Below are positions 27,866-33,705 of a DNA stretch of 64,000 nt, in pieces. The translations under genes were made by a program, and so were the position numbers. Each line of letters opens with the position of its first letter. Within the stretch, counting starts at the first letter, position 1. The DNA is from Betaproteobacteria bacterium (lineage in GTDB: Bacteria; Pseudomonadota; Gammaproteobacteria; Burkholderiales; Casimicrobiaceae). The notes below the pieces were generated by a model, which was given only the letters and a program-made list of their open reading frames with translations, had not been told where the DNA came from and did not search any database. Where the stretch lies: the NCBI GenBank assembly GCA_013298695.1, contig JAAFIS010000006.1:124001-188000 (forward strand). The letters run 5' to 3'.

Positions 27866-28176
27866 GCGCTGGCTTTATTCGTTATCGACCGAATTAATTG
27901 GGCGATACGGCGTAAAAGGCGCTATTTCAATGTATTGTTTTTCTTAGCTCATCGCCCAGCGTAATAGGCCAAAGACGTCGAAATCTTATAACCTACAAGT
28001 GTTGGTAAGCGCGGGCTTGACCGCGCTCACACCTAACCGTCCCCGCGCAACGAGCGTCGGCGTCTACGCTAGCAACCCAACCCACGGCGATACAAGGAGA
28101 TTGCGTTACGGCAAACACGCCACGCCGTGCGTCGCCTCAATCCATTGCAGGATTTGTTTTGCGTTGCGCGCGTTCG
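27866..28176. other. 311-base intergenic region with palindromic elements
   Basis: It contains an inverted pair TTGGGCGAT / ATCGCCCAG (27897-27961, loop about 45 bases) and a GCGCGGGCTTGACCGCGCT palindrome (28005-28027), also found at 60869-60951. It separates ubiK from the convergent delta-60 repeat gene. No gene was seen. Confidence 0.6.
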
Positions 28177-29715
28177 TCAAGGGATTTGCAACCCACATTG
28201 CGCCGCTAAGTAATCGCGAATCGATTGCCAGTCTGTGCGCTGTGCCGCTTGCGGAAACGTGATTCCTTGGAGCGCTTCGACACCAGTGAACCCGAGTGCC
28301 ACCCGAGTTTGTATCAATGCATCGATCGAGGCTAAAGTTCGTCCGTCGCCGTCGATGTCCATCGAGCAGTTTCGCGCTGCCGTAGAACCGCCTTCCAACA
28401 TGCTCGCGCAAAAGTAGTACTGACCCGATTCTGAAGCACCAGCGTTACCAGTGTATATCGTGCCGTTACGCGCTACGCCAACACCAGCGCCGCCACATTG
28501 CGCTTCTCCACCGAGCGGTGTTCGTGTGATTTCACCTTTGAAAACTCCGGGTGAATTATCCGCGCCGAACTCTGTGTCCAACGAACCGTCGGCGTTGAAT
28601 CTTGAGAGACTAAAACTGACGCTAGACTCCCGACACTGCGTCGCGACCAAGAGTTTGCCATCGTTTTGCAAAATGGCTCCGTTGTTGCCGACCGACACGC
28701 GTTGGCAAGGCCGCGCCAGCAAAGTGCCCGGCGCGGCCGCATTGCCACGGTTAAAGCGCAAGTCTGGCAACCCGGTTTCGTTTAGTCTTGCTACGCAGAC
28801 GACGCTGTTTTGTGCTTCAGGGCATTCGCCCACTAACAAAAGTTTTCCATCCGGCTGCGGGACAGCGGCTTTGACCATGTCATCGCCTGCAGTAATCGCC
28901 ACTGTCGATATTCCACCCGTTCCAAAAGTCGCATCAAATGCACCTGACGCGTCGAGCTGCACAGCGCAGAATGACTTTTTTGTTCCGAACGTACACGTAC
29001 CACTCAAAATGAATTTTCGATTCGCACGAATTGCGACCGCTGATACTTCGATGTCTTCTGCGGTCAACGGCAGGGGCAATACTCGCACTCCACGAGGCAC
29101 GTTTGCCGCATTGACTCCGGGCGCGACGTATGAAAACGCATCGTCAGTCATTCCATCTATATTGAGTCGTTCGACACATATAAAGACAGTGTTTTCGACG
29201 ATGCATCTGCTCGCGACGACCAATTTACCGTCATGCTGACTACCGATAGCACGCGGCGCGACTTTTGGCTGCACTCTTCCGGTGACCGCGCCCGAGGCGT
29301 TAAAGCTCGCGTCTACTGAGCCATTGGTATTGAGACGAACAACGCACTGCCCGAAACCTGAGCAGTTTCCTGCGAACGCAATCTTGCCATCTATCGTTTC
29401 GATAGCAGCGTTGACAGCTACCATCGCAACAGACTGAAGCGAGTGGCCATCAAACCCAACGTTTCCGCCGCCGGAATCAAGCTGACGACCGAATATGCAA
29501 GTGACGGTGTCGCAAACGCCATACGTCACGAATGTGTTCCGCGACGTTAGGAGCGTGCCGCTAGCGCGCGCATAACCGAAAGCGTCGGTGAATATCTGAC
29601 CCTGCCAATCCCCAGGCGCAGCGAATGCCGGAGACGTGCCGAGCAAAACTCCCGTGACAAGCGAAGCAAGTTGTTTACTAAAGGCGAACCAAGTTGGGCG
29701 TTGTTTCGAGTTCAA
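28177..29715 (-). CDS. secreted delta-60 repeat protein with EF-hand-like C-terminal domain
   Basis: 512 residues with a signal peptide (cleavage near AFAAPG). The body has at least four delta-60 repeats of about 55 residues, each with xxxGxxDxxF plus a PDGKLLLVG-type strand (for example NTNGSVDASFNASGAV, DASGAFDATFGTGGI). They should fold as a beta-propeller. The C-terminus has CSMDIDGDGRTLASIDALI, an EF-hand or dockerin-like Ca2+ loop, and ends with a Cys that can pair with the first. Likely extracellular or periplasmic; role unknown. Confidence 0.75.
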   Translation of the reverse strand: MNSKQRPTWFAFSKQLASLVTGVLLGTSPAFAAPGDWQGQIFTDAFGYARASGTLLTSRNTFVTYGVCDTVTCIFGRQLDSGGGNVGFDGHSLQSVAMVAVNAAIETIDGKIAFAGNCSGFGQCVVRLNTNGSVDASFNASGAVTGRVQPKVAPRAIGSQHDGKLVVASRCIVENTVFICVERLNIDGMTDDAFSYVAPGVNAANVPRGVRVLPLPLTAEDIEVSAVAIRANRKFILSGTCTFGTKKSFCAVQLDASGAFDATFGTGGISTVAITAGDDMVKAAVPQPDGKLLLVGECPEAQNSVVCVARLNETGLPDLRFNRGNAAAPGTLLARPCQRVSVGNNGAILQNDGKLLVATQCRESSVSFSLSRFNADGSLDTEFGADNSPGVFKGEITRTPLGGEAQCGGAGVGVARNGTIYTGNAGASESGQYYFCASMLEGGSTAARNCSMDIDGDGRTLASIDALIQTRVALGFTGVEALQGITFPQAAQRTDWQSIRDYLAAQCGLQIP

Positions 29716-29786: not shown

Positions 29787-30665
29787 CTATTTCAACAACC
29801 CCTTCAACAATTTCCCCATCTCCGCAGGATTGCGCGTAATCGTGAATCCACACTCTTCCATGATGGCGAGTTTGGCGTCTGCGGTGTCGGCACCGCCGGA
29901 GATGAGCGCGCCTGCGTGGCCCATGCGTTTGCCTGGGGGCGCGGTGACGCCTGCGATGAAGCCGACGACGGGTTTTTTCATGTTGGCTTTGACCCACATC
30001 GCGGCTTCGGCTTCATCGGGGCCGCCGATTTCGCCGATCATGATGACCGCATCCGTTTCAGGATCATCGTTGAACATGCGCATCACGTCGATGTGTTTCA
30101 AGCCGTTGATTGGGTCGCCGCCGATGCCGACGGCGCTCGATTGGCCGAGGCCGAGTTCGGTGAGTTGACCGACCGCTTCATAGGTGAGCGTGCCAGAGCG
30201 GGAGACCACGCCGATGCGGCCTTTTTTATGAATGTGACCGGGCATGATGCCGATTTTGATTTCGTCTGGTGTGATGAGGCCAGGGCAGTTCGGGCCGAGC
30301 AAGAGCGTTTTTTTGCCCAGCATTTTGTAGCGCGTCTTCATCATGTCGAGCACCGGAATGCCTTCGGTGATGCAGATGACCAAATCGAGTTCGGCATCGA
30401 CCGCTTCGTCAATCGCTGCCGCTGCGCCCGAGGGCGGCACGTAGATCACGCTAACCGTTGCGCCAGTTTGCGCTTTCGCTTCTTTCACACTCGCGTAAAT
30501 CGGAATGCCTTCGAAATTTTCGCCCGCTTTTTTCGGGTTCACACCCGCGACGAACGCATTCTTTCCATTCGCATACGCGGCGCAGCCATGGGTGTGGAAT
30601 TGCCCGGTTTTTCCGGTGATGCCTTGGGTGATGACTTTGGTGTCTTTATTGATGAGGATGCTCAT
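29787..30665 (-). CDS. sucD: succinyl-CoA synthetase alpha subunit
   Basis: 292 residues, normal length. It binds CoA through its N-terminal Rossmann domain ([18 protein letters not shown]). The phosphohistidine is in the [15 protein letters not shown] loop near residue 248. [11 protein letters not shown] and [10 protein letters not shown] are conserved. With SucC it makes ATP (or GTP) from succinyl-CoA in the TCA cycle. Normally sucD follows sucC directly; here a GIY-YIG nuclease gene and palindromes (381 bases in all) lie between. Confidence 0.97.
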
Positions 30666-30719: not shown

Positions 30720-31010
30720 TCAAATTAGATTTTGGTAACGATCTGACCAATCAGGATTTTCAGACTCAATCAATCGAATCTTCCAATCCCGTTTCCACTT
30801 CTTGAGTTGCTTTTCTCGATAAATTGCTTCGCCCATTTCGTCGTGCACTTCAAACCAAACGAGCCGTTTCACATCGTACTTCGAAGTGAAGCCTTTATGC
30901 ACTTCTTCGCGATGTTTCCATACGCGCCCAACAAGATCAGAGGTAACGCCGATGTAGAGCGTGCCGTAGGGTTTAGAGGCGAGTATGTAGACATATCCTT
31001 GTTTAGTCAC
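30720..31010 (-). CDS. GIY-YIG nuclease family protein
   Basis: 96 residues from a GTG at 31010; the frame is open upstream but that part is the palindrome. The GIY-YIG signature GYVYILASKPYGTLYIGVT is followed by RVWKHREE, with a Glu (AIYREKQLKKWKRDWK) later, as in the small COG2827/UPF0213-type proteins. These are probably DNA-end or repair nucleases and are common next to GC-rich palindromes. The gene sits between sucC and sucD, with such palindromes on both sides. Confidence 0.9.
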   Translation of the reverse strand: MTKQGYVYILASKPYGTLYIGVTSDLVGRVWKHREEVHKGFTSKYDVKRLVWFEVHDEMGEAIYREKQLKKWKRDWKIRLIESENPDWSDRYQNLI

Positions 31011-31014
31011 GATG

Positions 31015-31038
31015 GTTTCCTGCCTTCGCAGGAATGAC
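31015..31038. repeat. palindrome TTTCCTGCCTTCGCAGGAAT
   Basis: Copy of the GTCATTCC(C/T)GCGAAGG element in reverse orientation to 30681-30704. It lies between the fused sucC stop at 31049 and the GIY-YIG start. Confidence 0.85.
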
Positions 31039-31048
31039 ACCGGTTTGG

Positions 31049-32995
31049 CTACAGCGCGTTAAATTCAACACGACGATTGCGTTGCTTGTTGGCATCGCTG
31101 TCGTTGGGTGCGAGCGGTTTCGCATCGCCGTAACCCTTCGCGGCGAGCGCTTCTTTTGGCACGCCTTTCGCGATGAGATACGCAACTACAGATTCAGCGC
31201 GCGCTTGCGAGAGTTTTTGATTTGACGCGGCGTCACCAACGTTATCGGTATGGCCTGCGATTTCGCCTTTGGTTTTGCCGTCTTTAATCAGCTCAGAAAG
31301 CTCATTCAAATCTTTCACGGCTTCGCCGCGAATCTTCGCGCTGCCGGTGTCGAATTCGACGTCGAGCTTGAACGACTTCGCGCCAGCTTTAAACGCTTCG
31401 GCGGCGCTCATCGCGGGAGCACCTGCCGCTGGCGCTGGGGCAGTCGCTGCGGCAGTGCTCGGCGTCGCAGGCAACACCTGCGGCGCGGCGACAGCCGCAG
31501 TCGGCGCGGTAACTGCCGCTTTCGGTGCGACGGGTTTGGCCATTTCCTTTTGTTGCCCGCACTGTCGCAACAAAAGCGCGGCGACGATAGCGCTCACGAT
31601 CAACGCAAGCCATTTCATCCACCCAGCGATGGGCGCGGAAGGCTCAAGCGCACGCGCGACGCTACCGGTGGCTGACGTGGCGCTCGCAAGCGCTGCGCCC
31701 TTCGCGGCTTCGGCTGCGGCTGCAGCAGCAGCGTCACCCGCGCCCGCAGCTAGCGCGGCCGACGGAATTGCGCCGACAACTGCCGCCGAGCTTGCAGCCG
31801 CTGCCCCAATAGCAGTGGCGGCCACCGGCGAATAAGCCTTTGCCGCGGCTACCACTTTTTCAGCCGCTTCGCCCATATTATTTGCGGTGATGATCGGCAA
31901 ACCTGATTCGGCGAGAATTTTCTTGCCGAGCTCTTCGTTGGTGCCCTTCATGCGTACGACGAGTGGCACTTTGAGACCCACCGCTTTCGACGCGGCAACC
32001 ACGCCTTCGGCAATGGTGTCGCATTTCATAATGCCGCCGAAGATGTTCACCAGAATCGCTTTAAGATTCGGGTTTTTCAACATGATTTTGAAGGCTTCGG
32101 TGACCTTCTCAGTCGTCGCGCCACCGCCGACGTCTAAGAAGTTTGCAGGCTCGCCGCCGTAGAGCTTGATGGTGTCCATCGTGCTCATCGCGAGGCCCGC
32201 GCCGTTCACCAAGCAACCGATGTCGCCATCGAGCGAGATGTAGGCCAAGTCAAACTTCGAGGCTTCGATTTCAGCCGGATCTTCTTCATCCAAATCGCGC
32301 ATGGCAACGATGTCAGGATGGCGGAAGAGCGCGTTCGCATCGAAATTGAATTTCGCATCGAGCGCGATCACTTTGCCGTCGCCCGAAACGATCAACGGAT
32401 TGATTTCAGCGAGTGACGCGTCTTTTTCGATGAACGCTTTGTAGAGACCCTGCAAGCATTTACGCGCTTCGCCGAACGATGCCGCAGGAATGCCAATCGC
32501 ACCGGAAATATCGTCGCACTCCGCGTCGGTCAAGCCCTTGCCCGGATCGATGAAGATCTTCTTGATTGCATCAGGATTTTTGTGCGCGACTTCTTCGATA
32601 TCCATGCCGCCTTCGGAGGACGCAAGCAGCGCAATGCGTTGCGAGCCGCGATCAACGACCATCGACACGTAGAGCTCTTTGGCGATGTTCGCGCCCTCTT
32701 CGATGAAGAGGCGACGCACCTTCTGACCCTCGGCGCTTGTTTGATGCGTAATGAGCTGCATGCCGAGAATTTGCGACGCTTTTTCGCGCACATCTTCTAT
32801 CGATTTCGCAACCTTCACGCCGCCGCCTTTGCCGCGACCGCCCGCATGAATCTGCGCTTTAACGACCCACACGGAGCCGCCCAATTCTTCTGCGGCTTTA
32901 ACCGCTTCATCAACGCTAAATGCCGGAATGCCGCGCGGCACAGGAACGCCGAATTCGCGCAAGATTTGTTTGCCTTGGTACTCGTGGATTTTCAC
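31049..32995 (-). CDS. sucC: SucC-OmpA fusion: succinyl-CoA synthetase beta subunit with membrane helix and peptidoglycan-binding domain
   Basis: 648 residues from a GTG at 32995 with AAAGGGG about 12 bases before. Residues 1-388 are a complete SucC, numbered as in E. coli: ATP-grasp loop at 46-60 (Lys46, GGRGKGGG), [18 protein letters not shown]-like metal site and [18 protein letters not shown]. coli SucC ends at 388; here the frame runs on through an Ala-rich linker (about 389-455), one membrane helix (about 459-479, [18 protein letters not shown]), a Pro/Ala linker and an OmpA C-terminal domain (about 535-648). GHTDNVG gives Asp584 and LSQARAES gives Arg599, the pair that holds diaminopimelate. 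SucC in the cytosol and OmpA in the periplasm fit the single helix. DUF2889 upstream and sucD downstream show this is the native locus. Confidence 0.9.
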
Positions 32996-33147: not shown

Positions 33148-33705
33148 TTACGCGACTGTCGTCTCCTTACCCACGTACCATTTTGGATAGTAGAGCCGCG
33201 CGGCTTCGCCGTGCGTATCCAGCGCATGACAGGCATCCAGCTGAAACGGCTTTTTGTCGCCCCAGCCTTCGGTTTCTCGTTTGAGGCCGGCAAAAGTTTG
33301 CACGGCAGCGGTGGGCAAATAACCGAGCAATTCGGAGAGATGCGTGCAGCCTTTCACGCCACCCATGTGTTCGGCAATCGCTTTACGAAAGCCGCGCATC
33401 AAGTTGGCGCCGATCAGTTTTTTGTACTCAGGGCCAATAGTGTCGCAGTGGCCGGGATACGGCATGTGTTCGGTGATCGCTTCGATTTCAATCACGTTGA
33501 AGGCGCGATCAATCGTTACGCGAATGTGCATTTCGTGCACGGGAATGTCTTTGCTGCGCGTACCCATCGCGAGCGGATAGTCGCGATCTTTGCTGTCGCG
33601 CAAATGCGCGTCAATGTCAAAAAGCCCGTCCTCGCGTTGAAAGCCTTCGTAACTTACTTCACGCAAGTGCAATCTTTCACGCGGTTGTGGGGAAGGCAAA
33701 GGCAT
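33148..33705 (-). CDS. DUF2889 protein
   Basis: 185 residues, no signal peptide. Conserved strings HLREVSYEGFQREDGLFDID, a metal-site-like PVHEMHIRVTID, and GCTHLSELLGYLPTAAVQT near residue 120 fit DUF2889. Function unknown, but betaproteobacteria often keep it just upstream of sucCD, as here. The stop is 153 bases before the sucC start, with a REP-like palindrome between. Confidence 0.85.
   Translation of the reverse strand: MPLPSPQPRERLHLREVSYEGFQREDGLFDIDAHLRDSKDRDYPLAMGTRSKDIPVHEMHIRVTIDRAFNVIEIEAITEHMPYPGHCDTIGPEYKKLIGANLMRGFRKAIAEHMGGVKGCTHLSELLGYLPTAAVQTFAGLKRETEGWGDKKPFQLDACHALDTHGEAARLYYPKWYVGKETTVA

Follow-up and report, generated by a model that had tools for sequence, protein, structure and literature searches.

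The beta subunit of succinyl-CoA synthetase, SucC, is known as a soluble enzyme, and the locus described here raises the question of how it came to share one reading frame with a membrane helix and a peptidoglycan-binding domain, and what such a protein would do. In the window, by which we mean the whole stretch of 64,000 nucleotides that was analysed, the minus strand from 31049 to 32995 is a single open frame of 648 codons, with a GTG start at 32995 and a stop codon at 31049-31051, that encodes in order a complete SucC, an Ala-rich linker, one hydrophobic helix and an OmpA domain (Table 1). This unbroken arrangement had been proposed in a first-pass annotation of the DNA, and the Pfam and NCBIfam domains are indeed in place. 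Specifically, Pfam identifies ATP-grasp_2 at residues 2-202 (1.4e-75), Ligase_CoA at 262-382 (5.6e-32) and OmpA at 548-641 (1.5e-21; 77 bits against a gathering score of 27.2). The annotation's claim that the N-terminus is a full SucC is equally well founded, as the NCBIfam SucC equivalog NF001913 scores 581 bits (cut-off 370) and the alignment to PDB 1jkj_B, an E. coli-type SucC of 388 residues, runs end to end from 2 to 386. Whereas the known enzyme stops there, the fusion adds 260 further residues with the helix and OmpA, giving a calculated mass of 66.4 kDa rather than the roughly 68 kDa first estimated. The SucC part lies beside sucD and keeps the expected catalytic and binding sites: residues 46, 53, 54, 99, 107, 197, 199, 213, 264, 265 and 321, which we take to be catalytic or nucleotide/CoA-binding positions in E. 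coli numbering, are invariant in all 13 complete genes of the genus. The source genome is 99.47% complete, and the fusion gene is its sole SucC match at E ≤ 1e-30.

With respect to the extension, hydropathy peaks at residues 458-476 (KD 2.03, against a maximum of only 1.36 inside SucC), and AlphaFold2 places a helix at 457-478 in what is a poor model of the whole fusion (13 rows, mean pLDDT 47.9); both agree with the helix at about 459-479 suggested earlier. The charges flanking the helix give no clear orientation signal, and by eye no export signal is apparent on SucC. A lipoprotein reading, raised by the sequence LLLRQC, was rejected, as the Cys is absent in G007, G005, G018, G020 and G014 and no usual lipobox is visible by eye. 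In the OmpA domain, Asp584 and Arg599, previously singled out as the peptidoglycan pair, are found at exactly those positions; together with Asn592 and Leu595 they occupy the places of Asp486, Asn494, Leu497 and Arg501, which line the DAP site of TagL according to PMC8253398. All seven SucC-borne OmpA copies in the genus retain these D, N, L and R residues.

Table 1. Features of the fusion gene and its neighbours, in window positions
Feature	Position	Strand	Basis
SucC enzyme part, residues 1-386, ATP-grasp and CoA-ligase domains, GTG start	31838..32995	-	Pfam, NCBIfam, 1jkj_B alignment
Ala-rich linker, residues 387-449, predicted cytoplasmic	31649..31837	-	comparison of 13 genomes
Anchor: conserved motif and predicted transmembrane helix, residues 450-478	31562..31648	-	conservation, hydropathy, AlphaFold2
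Ala/Pro-rich spacer, residues 479-541, predicted periplasmic; BON-like segment here in five relatives	31373..31561	-	
Peptidoglycan-binding domain of the OmpA/Pal/MotB type (residues 542-648), with the stop codon	31049..31372	-	Pfam, DAP-pocket residues
sucD, succinyl-CoA synthetase alpha subunit, 292 aa, downstream	29787..30665	-	
DUF2889 gene, upstream	33148..33705	-	
GIY-YIG gene, 106 aa, between sucC and sucD	30720-31040	-	Pfam, E 6.5e-15

The surroundings are those of a native sucCD locus, as the annotation had held: both SucD and the DUF2889 gene are confirmed, and by eye the complete genome G005 has a similar DUF2889 gene at the same place. The GIY-YIG gene, on which the annotation had been silent, looks like a small mobile cassette. 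DNA similar to this insert begins at the same site in G009 and G006, and sucD lies directly behind sucC in the remaining 10 of the 13 complete genes of the genus. By eye, a short palindrome stands on either side of the gene, TTCCTGCGAAGGCAGGAA and TTCCCGCCTTCGCGGGAA; the repeat finder, at its settings, reported none. On the far side of sucD, the window encodes a 512-residue DUF5122 protein (28106-29715, minus strand). Two DUF5122-like proteins next to sucD in G005 end in ...WIESTHGVACLP, and since an ending of the WIESTHGVACLP type is coded in the window by a different frame (28106-28411) that overlaps the 512-residue frame, itself stopping at 28177, the DUF5122 gene may have undergone a frame change near its end.

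The whole-fusion protein was searched against 64 genomes of the family and matched at E ≤ 1e-30 in 54. The genus comprises 17 genomes, with a complete sucC in 13 (G000, which is the source genome, G005-G011, G014, G015, G017, G018 and G020); the gene is cut at contig ends in G013 and G016, and the search gave no match in G012 or G019. All 13 complete genes continue past SucC without a stop, for a total of 500-734 residues. All 13 also carry the anchor, in which the motif PSAP-x-[AS]-GW-[ML]-x-W is followed by a hydrophobic helix (KD19 of 1.85-2.68), residues L, P, S, A, P, G, W, W and A being invariant; the linker ahead of it is 25-64 residues long. Beyond the helix, three states are found: OmpA alone in two genomes (the source genome and G007), about 100 extra BON-like residues followed by OmpA in five (G006, G009, G011, G015 and G017), and an Ala/Pro-rich tail of 58-102 residues in six (G005, G008, G010, G014, G018 and G020). 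A Pfam scan of all 13 proteins called OmpA in seven, whereas the six tails yielded no OmpA call. Pfam recognizes BON in the extra segment of G015 (E 3.1e-7) and G017 (3.4e-6) and gives no BON call at E 0.1 in that of G006, G009 or G011, for which the BON-like assignment thus rests on the alignment of the five segments (mean column identity 86%). With the anchor in 13 of 13 genes and OmpA in 7, the anchor is the shared character and OmpA the variable one; judged from these sequences, what the genus invented and conserved is the membrane anchor, to which wall binding was added variably.

Selection was gauged by dN/dS from simple Nei-Gojobori counts in 10 genome pairs, with synonymous sites near saturation in several short regions. 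For the source genome and G007 the ratio was lowest in SucC (0.028) and OmpA (0.035), with 0.081 for the anchor region and 0.36 for the linker; SucC and OmpA gave 0.031 and 0.066 in G006/G009, and 0.034 and 0.058 in G015/G017. Across the seven pairs in which both members carry OmpA, its ratio was 0.032-0.10, and the anchor region gave 0.043-0.148 in 7 of the 10 pairs, the other three yielding no ratio as their synonymous sites were saturated. Purifying selection therefore acts on both the anchor and OmpA in the SucC frame. In the related genomes, where the annotation had proposed to look for the same fusion, architecture and frame thus recur under such selection, which excludes chance as their origin.

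Outside the genus, anchored SucC was not encountered among the genes read and the matches listed. A match was obtained in 39 other genomes of the family, and in the 18 whose sucC was read (loci L122-L138 and L190) the product is always 388-392 residues long. From a scan of named genomes, covering at least 589 relatives, 80 loci were retained; a start could be recognised in 79 of them, each of which encodes 386-392 residues. The fusion profile was also run on samples of 399 genomes of the order (379 matched) and 398 of the phylum (368 matched), a search in which a sequence-unrelated extension is visible solely through the length of the open frame. Among the matches listed, none outside the genus passes model position 400 without a stop except G164, G327 and G348, whose SucC proteins of 433, 460 and 516 residues have basic Lys/Pro/Ala tails and no hydrophobic helix; G408, from another family and with a long open frame, has an ordinary SucC of 389 residues. 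The tails in G164, G327 and G348 (L186, L187 and L188, from other families of the order) measure 45-128 residues and are histone H1-like in look. The idea that the fusion is widespread elsewhere was accordingly set aside, as it was not found among the matches listed in the order and phylum samples. A profile of the anchor gave strong matches in the genus only to the sucC gene (13 of 17 genomes), and in the 399 genomes of the order six strong matches, all from the genus itself, the other eight being at E 1.4e-4 or weaker; across both sets, no other protein was strongly matched. As far as seen in these sequences, anchored SucC appears confined to the genus.

How the extension was assembled can be approached from the SucC part, for which a midpoint-rooted protein tree of 13 genus rows and 10 rows from elsewhere in the family was built. 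The genus forms a clade (100/100). The first lineages to diverge in it, ahead of the OmpA carriers, are G020, G014, G018 and G005, each with an anchor plus a tail; support is 97/97 for the node above G020 and G014 and 83/80 for the union of G011 with the rest, and the OmpA-less G010 and G008 nest inside the carriers. The annotation had supposed that loss of the sucC stop codon ran the gene into an ompA-like gene downstream of it. We rejected this scenario, given that in the protein tree the deepest branches of the genus carry linker and helix without OmpA and that sucD follows close behind sucC in the 10 insert-free genes of the 13; for the same reasons, it is more likely, on sequence evidence, that OmpA arrived on a SucC that was already anchored. 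The likely order of gain, and the simplest story, is that the anchor was present in the common ancestor, BON-OmpA was gained once, OmpA was lost at least twice, and the BON segment was lost in the line of G007 and the source genome. The placement of the OmpA gain is tentative, because G011 moves close to the tail forms, with weak support (39), when a tree of the 13 genus rows is built from DNA. On both placements the anchor, rather than OmpA, stays the common character, and loss of a stop ahead of a resident ompA gene does not fit. A stand-alone TM-BON-OmpA protein of 261 residues is encoded at L195:7202-7987 (minus strand). It is 32% identical to the G015 SucC tail over 201 positions, and thus appears to be a distant relative of that tail and a candidate donor only.

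Taken together, these observations lead us to favour, with somewhat better than even confidence, the view that this gene encodes one inner-membrane protein that would tether succinyl-CoA synthetase, its OmpA domain gripping the wall in this species and six relatives. From the sequences we infer enzyme activity, an N-in/C-out topology, wall binding, co-localisation and a benefit, as follows. An active SucC would face the cytoplasm, a single helix would span the membrane, and the C-terminus would be periplasmic; this orientation, which by analogy would be that of TssL, is expected because SucC is without an export signal and must meet SucD in the cytoplasm. Soluble SucD, the product of the neighbouring gene, would pair with SucC in the ordinary way, and the synthetase as such would become membrane-tethered. 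In the source species and its six OmpA-bearing relatives, OmpA would grip peptidoglycan diaminopimelate and hold the enzyme still, a function that would not be generally needed, since OmpA is absent from 6 of the 13 proteins. On this reading SucCD would be held at the inner membrane, probably near respiratory enzymes, and the benefit would probably be that succinate and ATP are made beside membrane-bound partners, succinate dehydrogenase first. A pairing of these two enzymes is without strong precedent, given that SCS was not recovered together with complex II from rat heart (PMC3742469). Nor is the citric acid cycle as a whole anchored likewise, because both E2 genes for 2-oxoacid dehydrogenases in the source genome (frames of 489 and 431 residues) show no sign of such an extension.

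Other readings of the same gene have to be set against this one. Membrane tethering might be all that matters, with OmpA or the Ala/Pro tail merely filling the periplasmic side, and the presence of the anchor in 13 of 13 proteins against 7 for OmpA, as well as the nesting of the OmpA-less G008 and G010 among carriers, fits such a role. The strong purifying selection on OmpA (0.032-0.10 in seven pairs) and the intact DAP-pocket residues in all seven copies nonetheless make OmpA as mere decoration rather unlikely. The long, Ala-rich linker, faster-evolving at 0.36 in the source genome and G007, would be within reach of proteases, and cleavage of a precursor near the helix would leave SucC soluble and the wall-binding protein by itself in the membrane, so that the fusion would couple synthesis only; however, the PSAP-GW motif ahead of the helix is conserved and six species retain the anchor with a tail that has no known domain to release, and we consider such processing improbable.

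The Met of GWMKW, encoded by ATG in 12 of the 13 genes, could in principle serve as an internal start for a separate helix-OmpA protein, read-through SucC then being a minor product. Against this, G014 has a CTC Leu codon at that place, the residues ahead of the Met are conserved as protein, and no stop separates SucC from the helix in any of the 13 genes, which together render it very improbable. As for an assembly or sequencing artefact that joined two genes, we found no point in its support and give it a negligible chance: independent genomes show the same architecture, with anchored SucC in 13, including the single-contig G005, and SucC-OmpA in 7, and the near-complete source assembly also speaks against it. 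A tethered synthetase thus remains the reading that we prefer.

A close parallel to a wall-gripping, tethered SucC comes from type VI secretion, in the shape of the specialized (long) TssL, in which a peptidoglycan-binding domain is fused to TssL (PMC8253398). Like the fusion, long TssL comprises a cytoplasmic domain, one transmembrane segment and a C-terminal peptidoglycan-binding domain, and TssL lacking the last of these is described in PMC3426401 as having a single C-terminal segment that is inserted by YidC. The cytoplasmic part of long TssL, however, is a secretion scaffold and not a metabolic enzyme; the N-terminus of our protein is SucC rather than DotU/TssL, and TIGR03350 scores 70 against a cut-off of 139.8, over residues 547-645 only. 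Searched by fold, the helix-BON-OmpA part of G015 (AlphaFold2 model from 5 rows, pLDDT 55.8) has ArfA/OmpATb Rv0899 (PDB 2l26) as its best match, which is a hint only, as the fit is poor (TM-scores 0.27 and 0.32, rmsd 15.9). Rv0899, whose own order is TM, BON, OmpA, has no enzyme attached. The OmpA part of the fusion is also matched (E 1.3e-15) by residues 711-862 of a PDB 7f4v chain that bears the annotation of photosystem I apoprotein A2, which we take to come from Gloeobacter; that protein is an integral membrane photosystem and not a soluble enzyme given an anchor. Each part is known, and the order of cytoplasmic domain, helix and OmpA is known from TssL. A citric acid cycle enzyme so arranged was not seen: among the open-licence papers listed on SucC-OmpA, membrane-anchored SucC and an SCS-SDH metabolon, none describes a fusion of this kind.

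Relatives of a kind do exist within the genus itself. The source genome has ten OmpA matches, one of them in a cytochrome c oxidase subunit II, CoxB, that has COX2, cytochrome c and C-terminal OmpA domains (L194:7291-8889; C16:209290-210885 plus stop in the source genome) and that by eye adjoins CoxA-like and CoxC-like genes. CoxB-OmpA is matched to its end in 14 of the 17 genus genomes, G005 and G014 stopping short, in none of the 30 other family genomes with a match, and in three genomes outside the genus (G154, G180 and G191) among the 92 matched of 150 in an order sample. In G020 (C33:24159-25725) it is split into two pieces that overlap and are read in different frames, which may reflect decay or sequencing error. 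The membrane pyrophosphatase HppA likewise has a C-terminal OmpA (1.2e-11) behind H_PPase (9e-265; L206:2636-5212, minus strand, on C12 of the source genome). It is matched to the end in 15 of the 17 genus genomes; in G013 the match is broken into two pieces within one frame, and in G016 a contig end cuts it off. Of the 37 genomes outside the genus with a match, G061 is matched to the end and G051 in two pieces. The match in G014 (C126:84797-85666), counted as reaching the end, has two internal TGA codons, which again may stem from decay or sequencing error.

As in SucC, these C-terminal OmpA domains on energy proteins retain D, N, L and R. Unlike SucC, CoxB and HppA are already membrane proteins, and by eye their OmpA domains are of a different sequence type. 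That CoxB and HppA of the same genome also end in OmpA suggests, at the level of sequence, that placing such domains on energy proteins is a wider habit of the genus, among which SucC is the odd one for being otherwise soluble. More speculatively, and we consider it rather doubtful, SucCD, CoxB and HppA could each have been given OmpA so as to be fixed in shared inner-membrane patches, forming a peptidoglycan-pinned energy platform. If true, the citric acid cycle and the respiratory membrane would be linked in a metabolon that is specified covalently.

Membrane-bound clusters of citric acid cycle enzymes, or metabolons, have long been argued over, because the contacts involved are weak. Here, evolution has apparently written the attachment of an enzyme into the polypeptide. 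The genus and its surroundings provide a natural comparison set of SucC with the anchor alone, with anchor and OmpA or, outside the genus, with neither, and this set is suited to asking how flux depends on placing SucCD at the membrane and whether attachment to the wall brings anything further.
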